A stretch of 64,000 nt of DNA from the NCBI GenBank assembly GCA_002070415.1, contig MWDF01000005.1, forward strand, positions 1 through 64,000. The letters run 5' to 3'. Position numbers and translations under genes: made by a program. The DNA comes from Firmicutes bacterium ADurb.Bin153 (GTDB lineage Bacteria; Bacillota; DTU025; MWDF01). Positions 42,491-49,259 of this stretch are shown piece after piece. Position 1 is the first letter of the stretch; each line of letters begins with the position of its first letter. A model generated the notes under the pieces. It saw only the letters and a list, made by a program, of their open reading frames with translations. It did not search any database and was not told the origin of the DNA.

Positions 42491-42952
42491 CTAATATCTG
42501 GCGGCCAACCTGGCCTTGCTCACCAATTCAAATGGTATCCTCGATTGTTTGCCTTCGTCGTCTTCTATCACTACTTCGCCGTCCATAAGCCCGATGAGCT
42601 TCCCTTCGTGCCTCTTCTGCCCGCCGACTTGCTTGTATGTCGATATCAGCACGTTCCTGCCCGAGAACTTCGCGTATTCTTCTGCGAACCTCAGGGGTTT
42701 TTCGCCCGAGGACGTGACCTCCAGCACATAGGCGTGCGGAATGGGGTCCATTCCGTCCAGGATCCCGTCCGCCTCTTCGCTTAGGCGCGCGCAGTCATCT
42801 ATCCCGACCCCGGATTCCTTATCGATGTACAGCCTGAGAAACCAGCCGGCCCCCTCGGATGACAGCTCGACATCCAGAAGCGTCAGTCCCATACTCTCGG
42901 CGAGAGGCTCCACAGCCCTCTTTACCTGCAGTTCAACTCCCCTAACATCCAT
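42491..42952 (-). CDS. rimP: Ribosome maturation factor RimP
   Basis: Assists 30S assembly. LDVELSSEGAGWFLRLYIDKESGVGIDDCARLSEEADGILD (about 26-66) and YVLEVTSSGEKPLR with the C-terminal SH3-like domain are typical. 153 aa. GGGGG precedes the ATG. First gene of rimP-nusA-ylxR-ylxQ-infB-ylxP-rbfA-nrnA-truB-ribF. Its promoter is at 43051-43079, with a hairpin in the leader. Confidence 0.97.
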   Translation of the reverse strand: MDVRGVELQVKRAVEPLAESMGLTLLDVELSSEGAGWFLRLYIDKESGVGIDDCARLSEEADGILDGMDPIPHAYVLEVTSSGEKPLRFAEEYAKFSGRNVLISTYKQVGGQKRHEGKLIGLMDGEVVIEDDEGKQSRIPFELVSKARLAARY

Positions 42953-43233: not shown

Positions 43234-46200
43234 TCAGAACAGCTCCTGGTGCTCGCTCTCCTTCAACCCGGACAGGGCCCCCGCCTCCCTGAGCGCGGTT
43301 ATGTGCGTCTTGGTGAGCCCGACCCTCCTCTTCATGTCGTCCACCGAGCTGAACGGCGATTTCGACCTTGCGTCGCCTATCTTCGCGGCCGCCTTCTCGC
43401 CGAGCCTCGGCACCGAGGACAAAGGCGCCCTTATGCCGTCGTCTTCGGAAGTGAACCTCGTCGGATGGGAGACTGCGATGTCCACCTGCTTTATCCTGAT
43501 GCCCCTTAGCAGGGCCTCCCTCACCGCCTCCAGCACGGGCACTATGTCCTTCTCCTTCTGGGTGGCTGACTTGTTCGAGTCGGTGGAGCGTATCGCCCTG
43601 TCTATCTCCCTTACGGACATGGACGCGAACGACGGGTCGAAGTCCAGCGCCCTTATGGTCAGGTACGCGCTGTAGAATGCGACCGGCATGTGCACCTTCG
43701 CATAGGCTATCCTGAAGGCCATCATTACGTACGCGCACGCATGCGCCTTCGGGAACATGTACTTTATCTTGTTGCAGGAATCGGCGTACCAGTCGGGCAG
43801 GTCCAGCTCCGACATCATGGCCTCGTCCGACTGCGACAGGCCCTTGCCCTTCCTCACCTTCTCCATTATCTGGAAGGCGCTCTTTGGGGGCATGCCCCTG
43901 GAGATGAGGAAGTTCATGATGTCGTCCCTGACGGATATAACGTCCTTGAGGCCGCCGTCCCCGTTCTTGATCACGTCGCGCGCGTTGTCAAGCCATACGT
44001 TCGTGCCGTGCGACAGGCCCGATATCCTGACAAGCTCGTCGAACGTCGATGGCCTGGTCTCGACCAGCATGCCGCGCACGAACCTGGTGCCGAACTCGGG
44101 TATGCCTATCGTGCCGACCTCCTGCCCGTATCTCTTGGCATCCACGCCGAGAGCTCCTATGCCGGAGAATATCGACATCGTCGCCGCGTCGTCGAACGGC
44201 ACCTGCCTGAAGGATTCCCCGGTTATCTCCTCCAGCATCCTGATCATGGTCGGGTCGTCGTGGCCCAGCAGGTCGAGCTTCAGCAGGTTGTCATGCAGCG
44301 CGGTGTACTCGAAGTGGGTAGTCACTATCCCCTTCTCCTTCGAGTTCGCCGGATGCTGGACCGGCGTGAACTCATGGATGTCGCGCCCTTTTGGAAGAAC
44401 TATTATGCCGCCGGGATGCTGGCCCGTGGTCCTCCTGACGCCGGTCGTGCCTATGGCGAGGCGAGCCGACTGGGCCCTTCCTAGCCTTGCGACGGATTTC
44501 TCCTCGAAGGCCTTCACGAAGCCGTAGGCGGTCTTCTCTGCTATGGTGCCTATCGTCCCGGCCCTGAAGACATTGTCGGCGCCGAACATCTCCTCGGTGT
44601 ACTTATGTATCCTGGGTTGGTACTCGCCCGAGAAGTTCAGGTCGATATCGGGCACCTTGTCGCCCTCGAAGCCGAGGAACACCTCGAACGGTATGTCATG
44701 GCCCTCTTTGACCATCTTCATCCCGCAGGAAGGGCACACCTTGTCCGGTAGGTCGAAGCCGTGCTTCTGCCCGAACGGGCCGAAGTCAGACCCCTTGCAG
44801 CCTTCGCACCTGTAATGCGGCGGAAGGGGGTTCACCTCGGTTATCCCGAGCAGAGTCGCCACCAATGACGAGCCGACCGAACCTCTTGAGCCAACCAGAT
44901 AGCCGTCTGACAGTGATTTCCTGACCAGTTTCATCGCGACGAGGTAGATGCTCGCGAAGCCGTTCCCTATGATGGACTTCAGCTCCTTGTCCAGCCGCCG
45001 CTCTACGACATCCGGCAGGGGCTGCCCGTACAGGCGCTCCGCCTCCGACCTCGAAATGTCCCTGACGTCGTCCTCGGCGCCTTCCATGATCGGGGTGCTC
45101 AGCCCGTCCGGGACGGGCTTGAGGCATTCGACCCCGGCCGCTATCCTGTTCGGCTCGATAACCACGGCCCTCAGCGCGTCTTCACGACCGAGGTACGAGA
45201 ACTCCTCCAGCATCTCCTCGGTGGATCTTAGATGCAAGGGCGGCTGCTCGTCGAAGTCCCTGTAGTCCTGACCAGCCAGCAGTACTTTCCTCAGGTCGGA
45301 GTCCTCTTTCCTTATGTAATGGACGTCCCCGGTGGCTACGAACGGCTTTTCCGACTTCTTGGCCGCATCGACCAGCCTCCTGTTCAGGGACCTTATCGCG
45401 TCCAAGTCGGCAAGAGTGCCCTCCCTTACGAGATACGAGCTGTTCTCGGCCGGCATGATCTCCACGTAGTCGTAGAATTCCATGGCCTTCGACAGCTCCT
45501 CGTCCGACGCTTCCCTAAGCGCCAGCCTGAAGAGCTCACCGCCCGCACAGGCCGAGCCGTATAGGAGCCCCTGCCTCAGCTCCAGGGCCAGCCGCCTGGG
45601 CACGAGAGGGTGCCTCTTGAAATGCTCAAGGTGCGATTTCGTGACCATCCTGTAGAGGTTCGCAAGCCCGGCCCTGTCCTGTACGAGTACGGTGAAATGG
45701 TTCGTCTCATCCGACCCGTCATCCTTCAGGTACCCTTCCATGCCGAAGACGGGCTTTATGCCCATCTTGGACGCCGTCTGGTAGAAGCGCGGGAAGGAGT
45801 AGATGACGCCGTGGTCCGTAATCGCAACGGCCGTGTGGCCCATCCCTTTCACGGCCCTTATGACGTCTTCTGGGTCGCTCACGGAATCAAGCGCGCTCAT
45901 CTTGGTGTGGCAGTGCAGCTCCACCCTCTGGCAGGGCCTGAGGACCTCCGGGGCGCTCTCTTCGCATGATTCTATGTCCTCCGCCATCATAAGCGGCTCC
46001 GCTTCCTGTGTGCCCTTCCTGTCGTCCATAACGACGCTGCCGGCGACTCTGACAATCCCGCCCACCTGGGGCAGATCCTCTTCCGAATCGGCGCTTATGC
46101 TGCACGAGATCGCACCGGTCCTGTCCGCGACTATGAACGAGAGCACGGCCTTGTCCCACCTTGACGGGAAGACCGCCTGGTTCATGGCCTCGCCCTCGAC

Positions 46201-46875
46201 CGCCACGTAATCTGTCGCGTCCTGGATGCTTGCTATATCCACCGTCCCGACCTTTATCGGGTCCCCGTATACGTGGGCATTTGATCCGCCATCGCGGACG
46301 TCTGGCTCGTTTTCCTCTACCGGCGCTTCCGGCAGTGAATCGGAATAGTCGGTGTTCCTCGCAAGGCCGCAGGCGAGCTTCACGTCGACGCTGGCTCCCG
46401 TCTTCGCCCCCACGAGGTCCGATATGGCCTCGGGGACGTCGCGCCTTTCGAACGATATGAGCTGGGCCTCGCTAGGTACGGTCAATCCGACGAAACCGTC
46501 CCATGACGGTTCGCACGAAAGCAGCGCGCCGAGGTTTACGCCGCTTGTCTCGGAGACACTGGCGGCCAGTGAAGACCAGGCCTTCTTTATCCATAGATCC
46601 TTCTCGAACGGAAGGTATCTGACTTCGGCTTCCACATCCGCCGCATGCTCCGCAAGCGCCCTGCTCAAGCTGGATACGGCCTCTTCCATGTGCTCGGCGG
46701 GACCTTCCATGCGTACGCTCCAGCCGCCGTCTTCCGTGCGCACCAAAATCTCCCGCACGCGACAAAAAGCCAGCTCTTTCGAGGCTGGCGTGTCTGTTAT
46801 CGATTCTAGTAAACCTCTAAGGTCCTTATGCCCGTCCGAGGGCATCAAGCGATAATGCAACGATGACCACCCCAT
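43234..46875 (-). CDS. polC: DNA polymerase III PolC, lacking the inserted exonuclease domain
   Basis: Main replicative polymerase of Firmicutes. N-terminal domain (about 1-200), OB fold (about 205-300), PHP domain starting at VELHCHTKMS (about 318), polymerase palm with GSRGSVGSS (662-670), zinc cysteines C690, C693, C714, C717, catalytic PDIDLNFSGE (D743, D745), and a C-terminal helix-hairpin-helix. In canonical PolC (about 1430 aa) a DEDD exonuclease interrupts PHP after GLEANLVDDG. Here GMEGYLKDDG passes directly to NHFTVLV, giving 1213 aa. PHP ligands H321, H323, D330, H355, E380, H393, C443, D517 and H519 all seem present. The ATG at 46875 has no clear ribosome-binding site. Confidence 0.97.
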   Translation of the reverse strand: MGWSSLHYRLMPSDGHKDLRGLLESITDTPASKELAFCRVREILVRTEDGGWSVRMEGPAEHMEEAVSSLSRALAEHAADVEAEVRYLPFEKDLWIKKAWSSLAASVSETSGVNLGALLSCEPSWDGFVGLTVPSEAQLISFERRDVPEAISDLVGAKTGASVDVKLACGLARNTDYSDSLPEAPVEENEPDVRDGGSNAHVYGDPIKVGTVDIASIQDATDYVAVEGEAMNQAVFPSRWDKAVLSFIVADRTGAISCSISADSEEDLPQVGGIVRVAGSVVMDDRKGTQEAEPLMMAEDIESCEESAPEVLRPCQRVELHCHTKMSALDSVSDPEDVIRAVKGMGHTAVAITDHGVIYSFPRFYQTASKMGIKPVFGMEGYLKDDGSDETNHFTVLVQDRAGLANLYRMVTKSHLEHFKRHPLVPRRLALELRQGLLYGSACAGGELFRLALREASDEELSKAMEFYDYVEIMPAENSSYLVREGTLADLDAIRSLNRRLVDAAKKSEKPFVATGDVHYIRKEDSDLRKVLLAGQDYRDFDEQPPLHLRSTEEMLEEFSYLGREDALRAVVIEPNRIAAGVECLKPVPDGLSTPIMEGAEDDVRDISRSEAERLYGQPLPDVVERRLDKELKSIIGNGFASIYLVAMKLVRKSLSDGYLVGSRGSVGSSLVATLLGITEVNPLPPHYRCEGCKGSDFGPFGQKHGFDLPDKVCPSCGMKMVKEGHDIPFEVFLGFEGDKVPDIDLNFSGEYQPRIHKYTEEMFGADNVFRAGTIGTIAEKTAYGFVKAFEEKSVARLGRAQSARLAIGTTGVRRTTGQHPGGIIVLPKGRDIHEFTPVQHPANSKEKGIVTTHFEYTALHDNLLKLDLLGHDDPTMIRMLEEITGESFRQVPFDDAATMSIFSGIGALGVDAKRYGQEVGTIGIPEFGTRFVRGMLVETRPSTFDELVRISGLSHGTNVWLDNARDVIKNGDGGLKDVISVRDDIMNFLISRGMPPKSAFQIMEKVRKGKGLSQSDEAMMSELDLPDWYADSCNKIKYMFPKAHACAYVMMAFRIAYAKVHMPVAFYSAYLTIRALDFDPSFASMSVREIDRAIRSTDSNKSATQKEKDIVPVLEAVREALLRGIRIKQVDIAVSHPTRFTSEDDGIRAPLSSVPRLGEKAAAKIGDARSKSPFSSVDDMKRRVGLTKTHITALREAGALSGLKESEHQELF

Positions 46876-47525: not shown

Positions 47526-49259
47526 TCACCTCTTGCAGGGCTCTAGCCGATCCATCTCGGCATCGACTATCGCCTTTATCTCCTCGGCCGCATCTTCAAC
47601 CGGCACGAGCCTTGCCTGGGCATCGCGTCTCATCTTGAGCTCCACGCACCCCTTGTCCAGTCCCTTCGGCCCGACCGTCACCCTTATCGGTATCCCGATG
47701 AGGTCGGCGTCGTTGAACTTGACCCCAGGCCTTTCGTCCCGGTCGTCAATGAGGGCTTCCACACCGGCCGCCATAAGTTCGGCATACAATGCCTCGCCCG
47801 CTTCAAGCTGCCTTTCGTCTGTCGTGTTGACGACCACCACCGTGCATTGGTACGGCGCCACCGACATAGGCCAGATGATGCCCTTCTCGTCGCTGTGCTG
47901 CTCGATGACCGCGGCGACGCAGCGTGTGATCCCTATGCCGTAGCAGCCCATCACCATCGGGTGGGATTCGCCCTTGTCGTCAAGGTACGTGCAGCCGAGG
48001 GGCACGCTGTACTTCGCTCCGAGCTTGAACAGGTGTCCTACTTCGATCCCCTTCTTCGCGACGAGGGGGTTCGAGCAGTCGGGGCACAAGTCGCCCTCGA
48101 CGGCGTTCCTCAGGTCTGCGAGCTCGAACGGGCCGAAGTCCCTTCCGTAGCAGAGGTCCTTGTAGTGTACGTCCTTCTCGTTCGCGCCCGAAACGCCGCA
48201 CATTATGGCCGGGATCTCGAAGTCGGCTATTACCTTGGGGCACTTTATGCCGACCGGTCCTGCGAAACCGACCGGGGCCCCCGTCACTCTCAATATGGTC
48301 TCCTCGTCGGCAAGAGACACTTCCCTTGCTGCTACGGCATTCCTGAGCTTCAACTCGTTGAGCTCCCTGTCGCCCCTTAAGAGGGCTACGACCGGCTCGC
48401 CGTCGGCCAGGTACACGAGCGTCTTTATCATCCTGCCGGCCGGAACAGAAAGGAATCTCTCGAGCTGCTCGATCGTCCTCACGTCCGGCGTTTCGACCTT
48501 GCTCATGGGAGGGCATTCGCACGCGCTCGCTTCGGGCCTTGCCGTTATCTCGGCCCTTTCGACGTTCGCGCCGTAGCCGCACTTCTCACAGACTACGATA
48601 TCCGCCTCCCCTATTCCGGCTATGGCCATGTATTCCTTGGAGACCTTGCCGCCGATCGCACCGGAATCTGCCTCGACCACGAGGAAATCCAGGCCCATGC
48701 GGGTGAAGGCCCTGCAATATGCCTCGTACATCCTCTCGAAGGATACGTCGAGCCCCTGCTGGTCCGCATCGAAGCTGTACAGGTCCTTCATTATGAACTC
48801 CCTGCCGCGCATGACACCGTAGCGGGGCCTTATCTCGTCCCTGAACTTCGTCTGTATCTGGTAAAGGAGCTTCGGCAGCTGCCTGTATGAGCGCACCTCG
48901 TCCGCCACGTGGGTCGTTATGTTCTCCTCGTGCGTAGGCCCGAGGCAGACTTCCCTTCCTCCGCGGTCCTTGAACTTGAACATCTCGCTGCCGTAATCGT
49001 CGTACCTTCCCGTCCTCTGCCAGGGTTCGGGATTCTGCAACGCGGGCATGAACAGCTCCTGTCCGCCCTGCCTGTCCATCTCCTCGCGGACTATCTGCTC
49101 AACCTTGCGTATGGACCTCCATCCCAGCGGAAGGTATGTGTATACGCCCGCCATGGTCTTGCGCATAAGCGCGGCCCTCAACATGAGCTTGTGGCTCGCT
49201 ATCTCGGCCTCTGCTGGCACTTCGCGCAACGTGGGCGCGAAAATCTCGCTCATCCTCAT
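47526..49259 (-). CDS. proS: Prolyl-tRNA synthetase (bacterial type, with editing domain)
   Basis: Class II synthetase for tRNA-Pro. Motifs 1-3 are visible (YLPLGWRSIRKVEQIVREEM, FKFKDRGGREVCLGPTHEE, GCYGIGITR); a YbaK-like cis-editing domain (about 235-385) lies between motifs 2 and 3, followed by the anticodon-binding domain. 577 aa. The ATG overlaps the ispG stop (ATGA). Cognate tRNA-Pro(CGG) is at 991-1067. No T-box is visible. Confidence 0.97.
   Translation of the reverse strand: MRMSEIFAPTLREVPAEAEIASHKLMLRAALMRKTMAGVYTYLPLGWRSIRKVEQIVREEMDRQGGQELFMPALQNPEPWQRTGRYDDYGSEMFKFKDRGGREVCLGPTHEENITTHVADEVRSYRQLPKLLYQIQTKFRDEIRPRYGVMRGREFIMKDLYSFDADQQGLDVSFERMYEAYCRAFTRMGLDFLVVEADSGAIGGKVSKEYMAIAGIGEADIVVCEKCGYGANVERAEITARPEASACECPPMSKVETPDVRTIEQLERFLSVPAGRMIKTLVYLADGEPVVALLRGDRELNELKLRNAVAAREVSLADEETILRVTGAPVGFAGPVGIKCPKVIADFEIPAIMCGVSGANEKDVHYKDLCYGRDFGPFELADLRNAVEGDLCPDCSNPLVAKKGIEVGHLFKLGAKYSVPLGCTYLDDKGESHPMVMGCYGIGITRCVAAVIEQHSDEKGIIWPMSVAPYQCTVVVVNTTDERQLEAGEALYAELMAAGVEALIDDRDERPGVKFNDADLIGIPIRVTVGPKGLDKGCVELKMRRDAQARLVPVEDAAEEIKAIVDAEMDRLEPCKR

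Follow-up and report, generated by a model that had tools for sequence, protein, structure and literature searches.

What proofreads DNA replication when the replicative polymerase PolC is encoded without its inserted exonuclease domain? This question is raised by a polC gene in the window, by which we mean the whole 64,000-nucleotide stretch of DNA from Firmicutes bacterium ADurb.Bin153 that was analysed here.

Locus and domain layout

The polC open reading frame is intact, running from ATG to TGA with no internal stops, and the 1213-aa product scores over the PolC cut-offs of NF001688 (1297 bits; cut-off 873) and TIGR01405 (1215 bits; cut-off 1043). These curated equivalog cut-offs place it among the PolC-type DNA polymerase III alpha subunits. 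Pfam identified PHP, Pol3-alpha, finger and HhH domains. Both the OB domain N-terminal to PHP and the C-terminal HhH region are present, as indicated by the alignment to 3f2b from residue 221, by HHH_6, and by the structural model and its fold match. The features of the locus are as follows.

43234..46875, reverse strand: polC, 1213 aa, PolC-type DNA polymerase III alpha subunit without the DEDDh insertion (NF001688 and TIGR01405 over cut-off; 3f2b alignment)
46264..46875, reverse strand: N-terminal region, residues 1-204, weakly conserved (outside the 3f2b matches; w 0.153 between congeners)
45946..46263, reverse strand: OB-domain region, residues 205-310 (3f2b alignment from residue 221; beta-rich in the model)
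45196..45930, reverse strand: PHP domain, residues 316-560, nine metal ligands intact (Pfam PHP, 1.4e-31; site columns; w 0.073 for residues 311-560)
45700..45735, reverse strand: 12-residue linker 381-392, GYLKDDGSDETN, site of the DEDDh insertion in typical PolC (insert-length comparison; two modelled strands joined by a short turn)
43546..45078, reverse strand: polymerase core, residues ~600-1110, with PDIDLNF (742) and LKLDLLGHDDP (865) (Pfam DNA_pol3_alpha, finger)
43237..43545, reverse strand: C-terminal HhH region, residues 1111-1213, ending in the divergent clamp-binding motif HQELF (HHH_6)
47526..49259, reverse strand: proS, neighbour (NF006625)
42491..42952, reverse strand: rimP, neighbour (RimP models, best 4.6e-35, under curated cut-offs)

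On one side polC is flanked by dxr, rseP, ispG, proS and a glycosyltransferase gene, and on the other by rimP, nusA and infB. The proS-polC-rimP-nusA-infB neighbourhood is where the resident replicative PolC of Bacillota normally lies.

Absence of the inserted exonuclease

The original prediction held that the DEDD insertion is absent from this PolC and that no DEDD motif occurs elsewhere in its 1213 residues, and both points were borne out. Specifically, 12 residues separate E380 from H393 in the alignment, against about 210 in exo-containing PolCs. The exo-less PolCs of the alignment (n=64) have 12-25 residues at this junction and the exo-containing ones (n=124) have 180-219, at least 209 in all but two; no intermediate lengths occur in the alignment. 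The insert of about 210 residues in exo-containing relatives carries FD[IVL]ET, HNAxFD and HRAxxD motifs. In the NF001688 alignment, the highest-scoring segment starts at residue 390 of the query, which corresponds to profile position 613. Pfam detected no RNase_T match at E<=1 over the whole protein, ruling out a DEDD domain elsewhere in PolC. An AlphaFold2 model of residues 205-1213 (mean pLDDT 89, pTM 0.80) agrees with this, as the modelled chain is continuous at the junction, with two strands joined via a short turn and no inserted domain. Its best matches among solved folds are 3f2c/3f2b from Geobacillus kaustophilus PolC (TM 0.93-0.95), a structure that is itself without the exonuclease domain (PMC3919608).

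The window genome is an assembly of 96 contigs with 89% completeness and 5.8% contamination, so that an assembly or binning artefact, in which an in-frame deletion took out the exonuclease, deserves mention. It is extremely improbable. The same exo-less architecture is present in the independent assembly of a congener with 85% identity (L004, JAKQNF010000002), which excludes an assembly deletion. The layout is shared by order-level relatives (L005-L008), also assembled independently, and exo-less PolC was found in other genomes of the phylum, including closed ones.

The DEDDh insertion is typical of PolC and not universal: Timinskas et al. reported 6% of PolCs without Exo, and 16% in the table for PolC paired with DnaE1 (PMC3919608). 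Its absence therefore leaves the protein within the PolC family, and the window protein fits the definition of the exo-less variant, a PolC without the Exo insertion.

Frequency and recurrence of exo-less PolC

Published exo-less PolCs are nearly all from Clostridia and Negativicutes (PMC3919608). We searched a phylum sample of 300 genomes, made up of the window's own and others drawn at >=95% completeness, and detected PolC over the cut-off in 217 of the 300. Among the 150 matches listed, 99 are full-length, 48 are cleanly exo-less, two are truncated at contig ends and one is broken up by a frameshift. Another 16 PolC-bearing genomes outside the matches listed, picked for individual look-up because most had no RNase_T match, are all exo-less (16/16). 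Overall, exo-less PolC is present in at least 64 and at most about 118 of the 217 PolC-bearing genomes. These counts suggest a far higher frequency in Bacillota genomes than the published 6% of PolCs.

The exo state changes 10 times on an unrooted FastTree tree of the polymerase core (188 rows), with at least 8 changes forced by supported branches, and 8 times on an unrooted quick IQ-TREE tree (122 rows), with at least 4 forced. Lateral transfer of polC may contribute to these changes. Domain loss is a recurrent event.

PolC appears to be split by a frameshift between its exonuclease and polymerase parts in one single-contig genome (L218, G269:C1:1540000-1544700), where an upstream frame of 636 aa carries RNase_T and the downstream frame has 833 aa.

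Probable inactivation and excision within one family

Loss appears to be under way in one genus of family f21, whereas the domain is intact in other genera of that family. PolC matches from six of the family's genomes (G029, G066, G148, G210, G230 and G296) span the exonuclease, with strong RNase_T matches inside. In the PolC of G125 (L200, G125:C143:36300-40750) a 198-aa insert is still present, but VLALATTG stands in place of VVDIETTG and both HNAxFD and HRAxxD have been lost; the PHP site of this PolC is intact. Judged from these motifs, the insert is catalytically dead. The PolC of G098 (L253/L262, G098:C164), from the same genus, is left with a linker of just 39 aa (GYIVHDQEQV...EQLPSH), and the ends of this linker match the sequence on either side of the dead G125 domain. 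The dead domain and the scar with matching flanks point to inactivation followed by excision. This pattern indicates that the exo-less state is probably derived, not primitive, in the lineage of this genus (g84).

Alternatively, the exo-less form may be primitive, representing PolC before the exonuclease insertion and not a loss. The trees are unrooted and their change counts cannot separate gain from loss, but it is unlikely that the domain was gained several times over at one precise position, and the scar in genus g84 has the same flanks as its dead domain, so we regard a primitive origin as very unlikely.

Conservation of the PHP metal site

The nine PHP positions named in the original prediction were correct, as all of them fall in metal-site columns of the alignment. 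All nine ligands (H321, H323, D330, H355, E380, H393, C443, D517 and H519) are kept in the window PolC (P0001) as HHDHEHCDH, the complete HHDHEH[C/H]DH site of PHP-type proofreading polymerases. They are intact in 64/64 exo-less PolCs of the alignment, and also in all exo-less PolCs re-checked individually; the site is altered in 12/123 exo-containing PolCs. Most of these alterations replace the aspartate corresponding to D517 with asparagine in one exo-containing clade (ATGNVHY versus ATGDVHY), and G. kaustophilus PolC has the same N. Assigned by motif order, this position is D226 of Mycobacterium tuberculosis DnaE1, in which D226N abolished the exonuclease (PMC5636811). G. kaustophilus PolC, with one PHP ligand mutated, has no exonuclease activity, and the DEDD exonuclease of PolC sits inserted in a loop beside the PHP active site (PMC5636811). 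Three exo-containing PolCs have unusual PHP sites: HHNSEHCDH (L019), HHDHEPFDH (L199) and HHDHEHTDH (L205).

The PHP domain is under strong purifying selection between congeners, with w of 0.073 (residues 311-560), close to the 0.055 of the polymerase core; these values are rough, dS being near or above 1. Divergence of PHP relative to the core amounts to 1.18 for exo-less PolCs, 1.21 for exo-containing PolCs with intact PHP and 1.50 for those with broken PHP. We considered whether exo loss is statistically linked to an intact PHP site and rejected the link. The naive Fisher test (p 0.009) counts related sequences as independent, and after correction for phylogeny the association is not significant (independent pairs, 1.3 versus 0), with only two PHP state changes on the tree, too few to test it. 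The association is directional only.

DnaE in the genus

PolC alone was found in the window genome (G000, 89% complete), with no DnaE. A genome with only PolC would be unprecedented and would contradict the literature, in which all bacteria are said to carry a DnaE-type subunit. DnaE1 is present in the 98%-complete congener, where it lies on a 19.8-kb stretch (L260, G011:C33:20001-39821) whose first 279 bases match the very end of G000 contig C42; the rest has just short scattered matches to the window genome. A block of about 19.5 kb with dnaE1 is therefore missing from the G000 assembly, and contig C42 ends at the block edge. Thus, a PolC-only genome is improbable, and dnaE1 of the window genome most probably lies in an assembly gap. 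The PHP site of the congener DnaE1 is also HHDHEHCDH. Three order members (G001, G005 and G002) have a second DnaE (L232, L233 and L234) with the PHP site HHDHEHCNH, a D to N change; they also have DnaE1, with its visible PHP ligands intact.

Candidates for proofreading

Proofreading by either the PHP domain or a separate DnaQ-like protein had been predicted, and it is the second option that is disfavoured. We detected no RNase_T over the cut-off in the window genome or in two congeners, one of them 98% complete, and the Pol I-type 3'-5' exonuclease PF01612 was not found in the genus. One point for editing in trans by a DnaQ-like (epsilon) protein, as in E. coli, is that RNase_T proteins occur in many genomes whose PolC is exo-less, several of them in long fused frames of ~920-980 aa; the order members G001, G002 and G005 have one or two. 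Also, the RNase_T search could miss a very divergent DnaQ, and the window genome is just 89% complete. Nevertheless, RNase_T over the cut-off is likewise missing from G009 (97%) and from the single-contig genomes G026, G030, G095 and G121, all with exo-less PolC, and we consider a DnaQ-like protein quite unlikely here.

The PHP option stands as the best inference. We conclude that this is probably an ordinary replicative PolC that lost its DEDDh domain in the lineage, and that its PHP domain most likely proofreads together with that of DnaE1. The intact PHP site, the strong purifying selection, the complete DnaE1 site and the lack of any detected DEDD-type exonuclease argue for Zn-dependent proofreading by PHP. 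The replicative PolC of the lineage would have lost its inserted DnaQ-like (DEDDh) exonuclease, the PolC PHP would edit the PolC primer end through Zn-dependent 3'-5' exonuclease activity like that of DnaE in Thermus and Mycobacterium, and the intact PHP of the partner DnaE1 would contribute to proofreading at the fork. Against this, PHP is intact in most exo-containing PolCs too and so is not specific to exo loss, its ligands may have been retained because the structure needs them, and the association described above loses significance once phylogeny is counted.

Alternatively, PolC itself may edit little or not at all, with either DnaE1 (PHP) acting in trans or mismatch repair removing the errors, and with a PolC PHP that is mainly structural. 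The intact PHP of the congener DnaE1 is compatible with this, and proofreading in trans has a precedent in B. subtilis, in the opposite direction (cited in PMC12926913). Retention of all nine ligands, beyond the mere fold, in every exo-less PolC of the alignment speaks against it, as exo-containing PolCs can lose ligands yet retain the fold; we regard it as rather unlikely.

There is about an even chance that a replisome with PolC and DnaE1 proofread only by PHP, with no cellular DEDD exonuclease, arose repeatedly in Bacillota as the DEDD domain was first inactivated and later excised. A 2026 survey counted three active proofreaders in most Clostridia (PMC12926913), and our search of open-licence papers found no biochemical assay of any naturally exo-less PolC.

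Relation to known systems

The novelty implied by the original prediction did not hold up, as exo-less PolCs are published (PMC3919608) and common in the phylum. The window PolC is a further member of this known variant. Like the exo-less PolCs of Timinskas et al. (PMC3919608), it has a PHP-Pol3-HhH layout, no Exo insertion and a conserved PHP site; nothing fundamental sets it apart from them, except that it comes from a different, uncultured Bacillota lineage with no RNase_T exonuclease found in the genus. The present analysis adds the high frequency of the variant in the genome sample, its recurrence on the trees, the series of intact, dead and excised domains in one family, and genomes in which no DEDD exonuclease was detected. 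The window PolC offers a natural comparison for asking if a replicative PolC can rely on its PHP domain as the only proofreader. Among its relatives, the intact, dead (L200) and excised (L253/L262) exonuclease domains open the loss of a proofreading domain to direct test in vitro.

The nine-ligand PHP site, with a loop instead of an adjoining DEDD domain, is shared with M. tuberculosis DnaE1 and Thermus DnaE (PMC5636811). Unlike these PHP exonucleases, the window protein is a PolC, not a DnaE, and its PHP activity is predicted. Canonical Bacillus/Geobacillus PolC is about half identical in the core and has the same locus type and fold (3f2b, TM 0.94-0.95). The window protein differs from it in the missing DEDDh domain, in keeping D517 where Geobacillus PolC has N, and in its clamp-binding motif (43237-43251, reverse strand), which is HQELF where QLSLF/QLTLF is usual; the congener L004 has HLELF.
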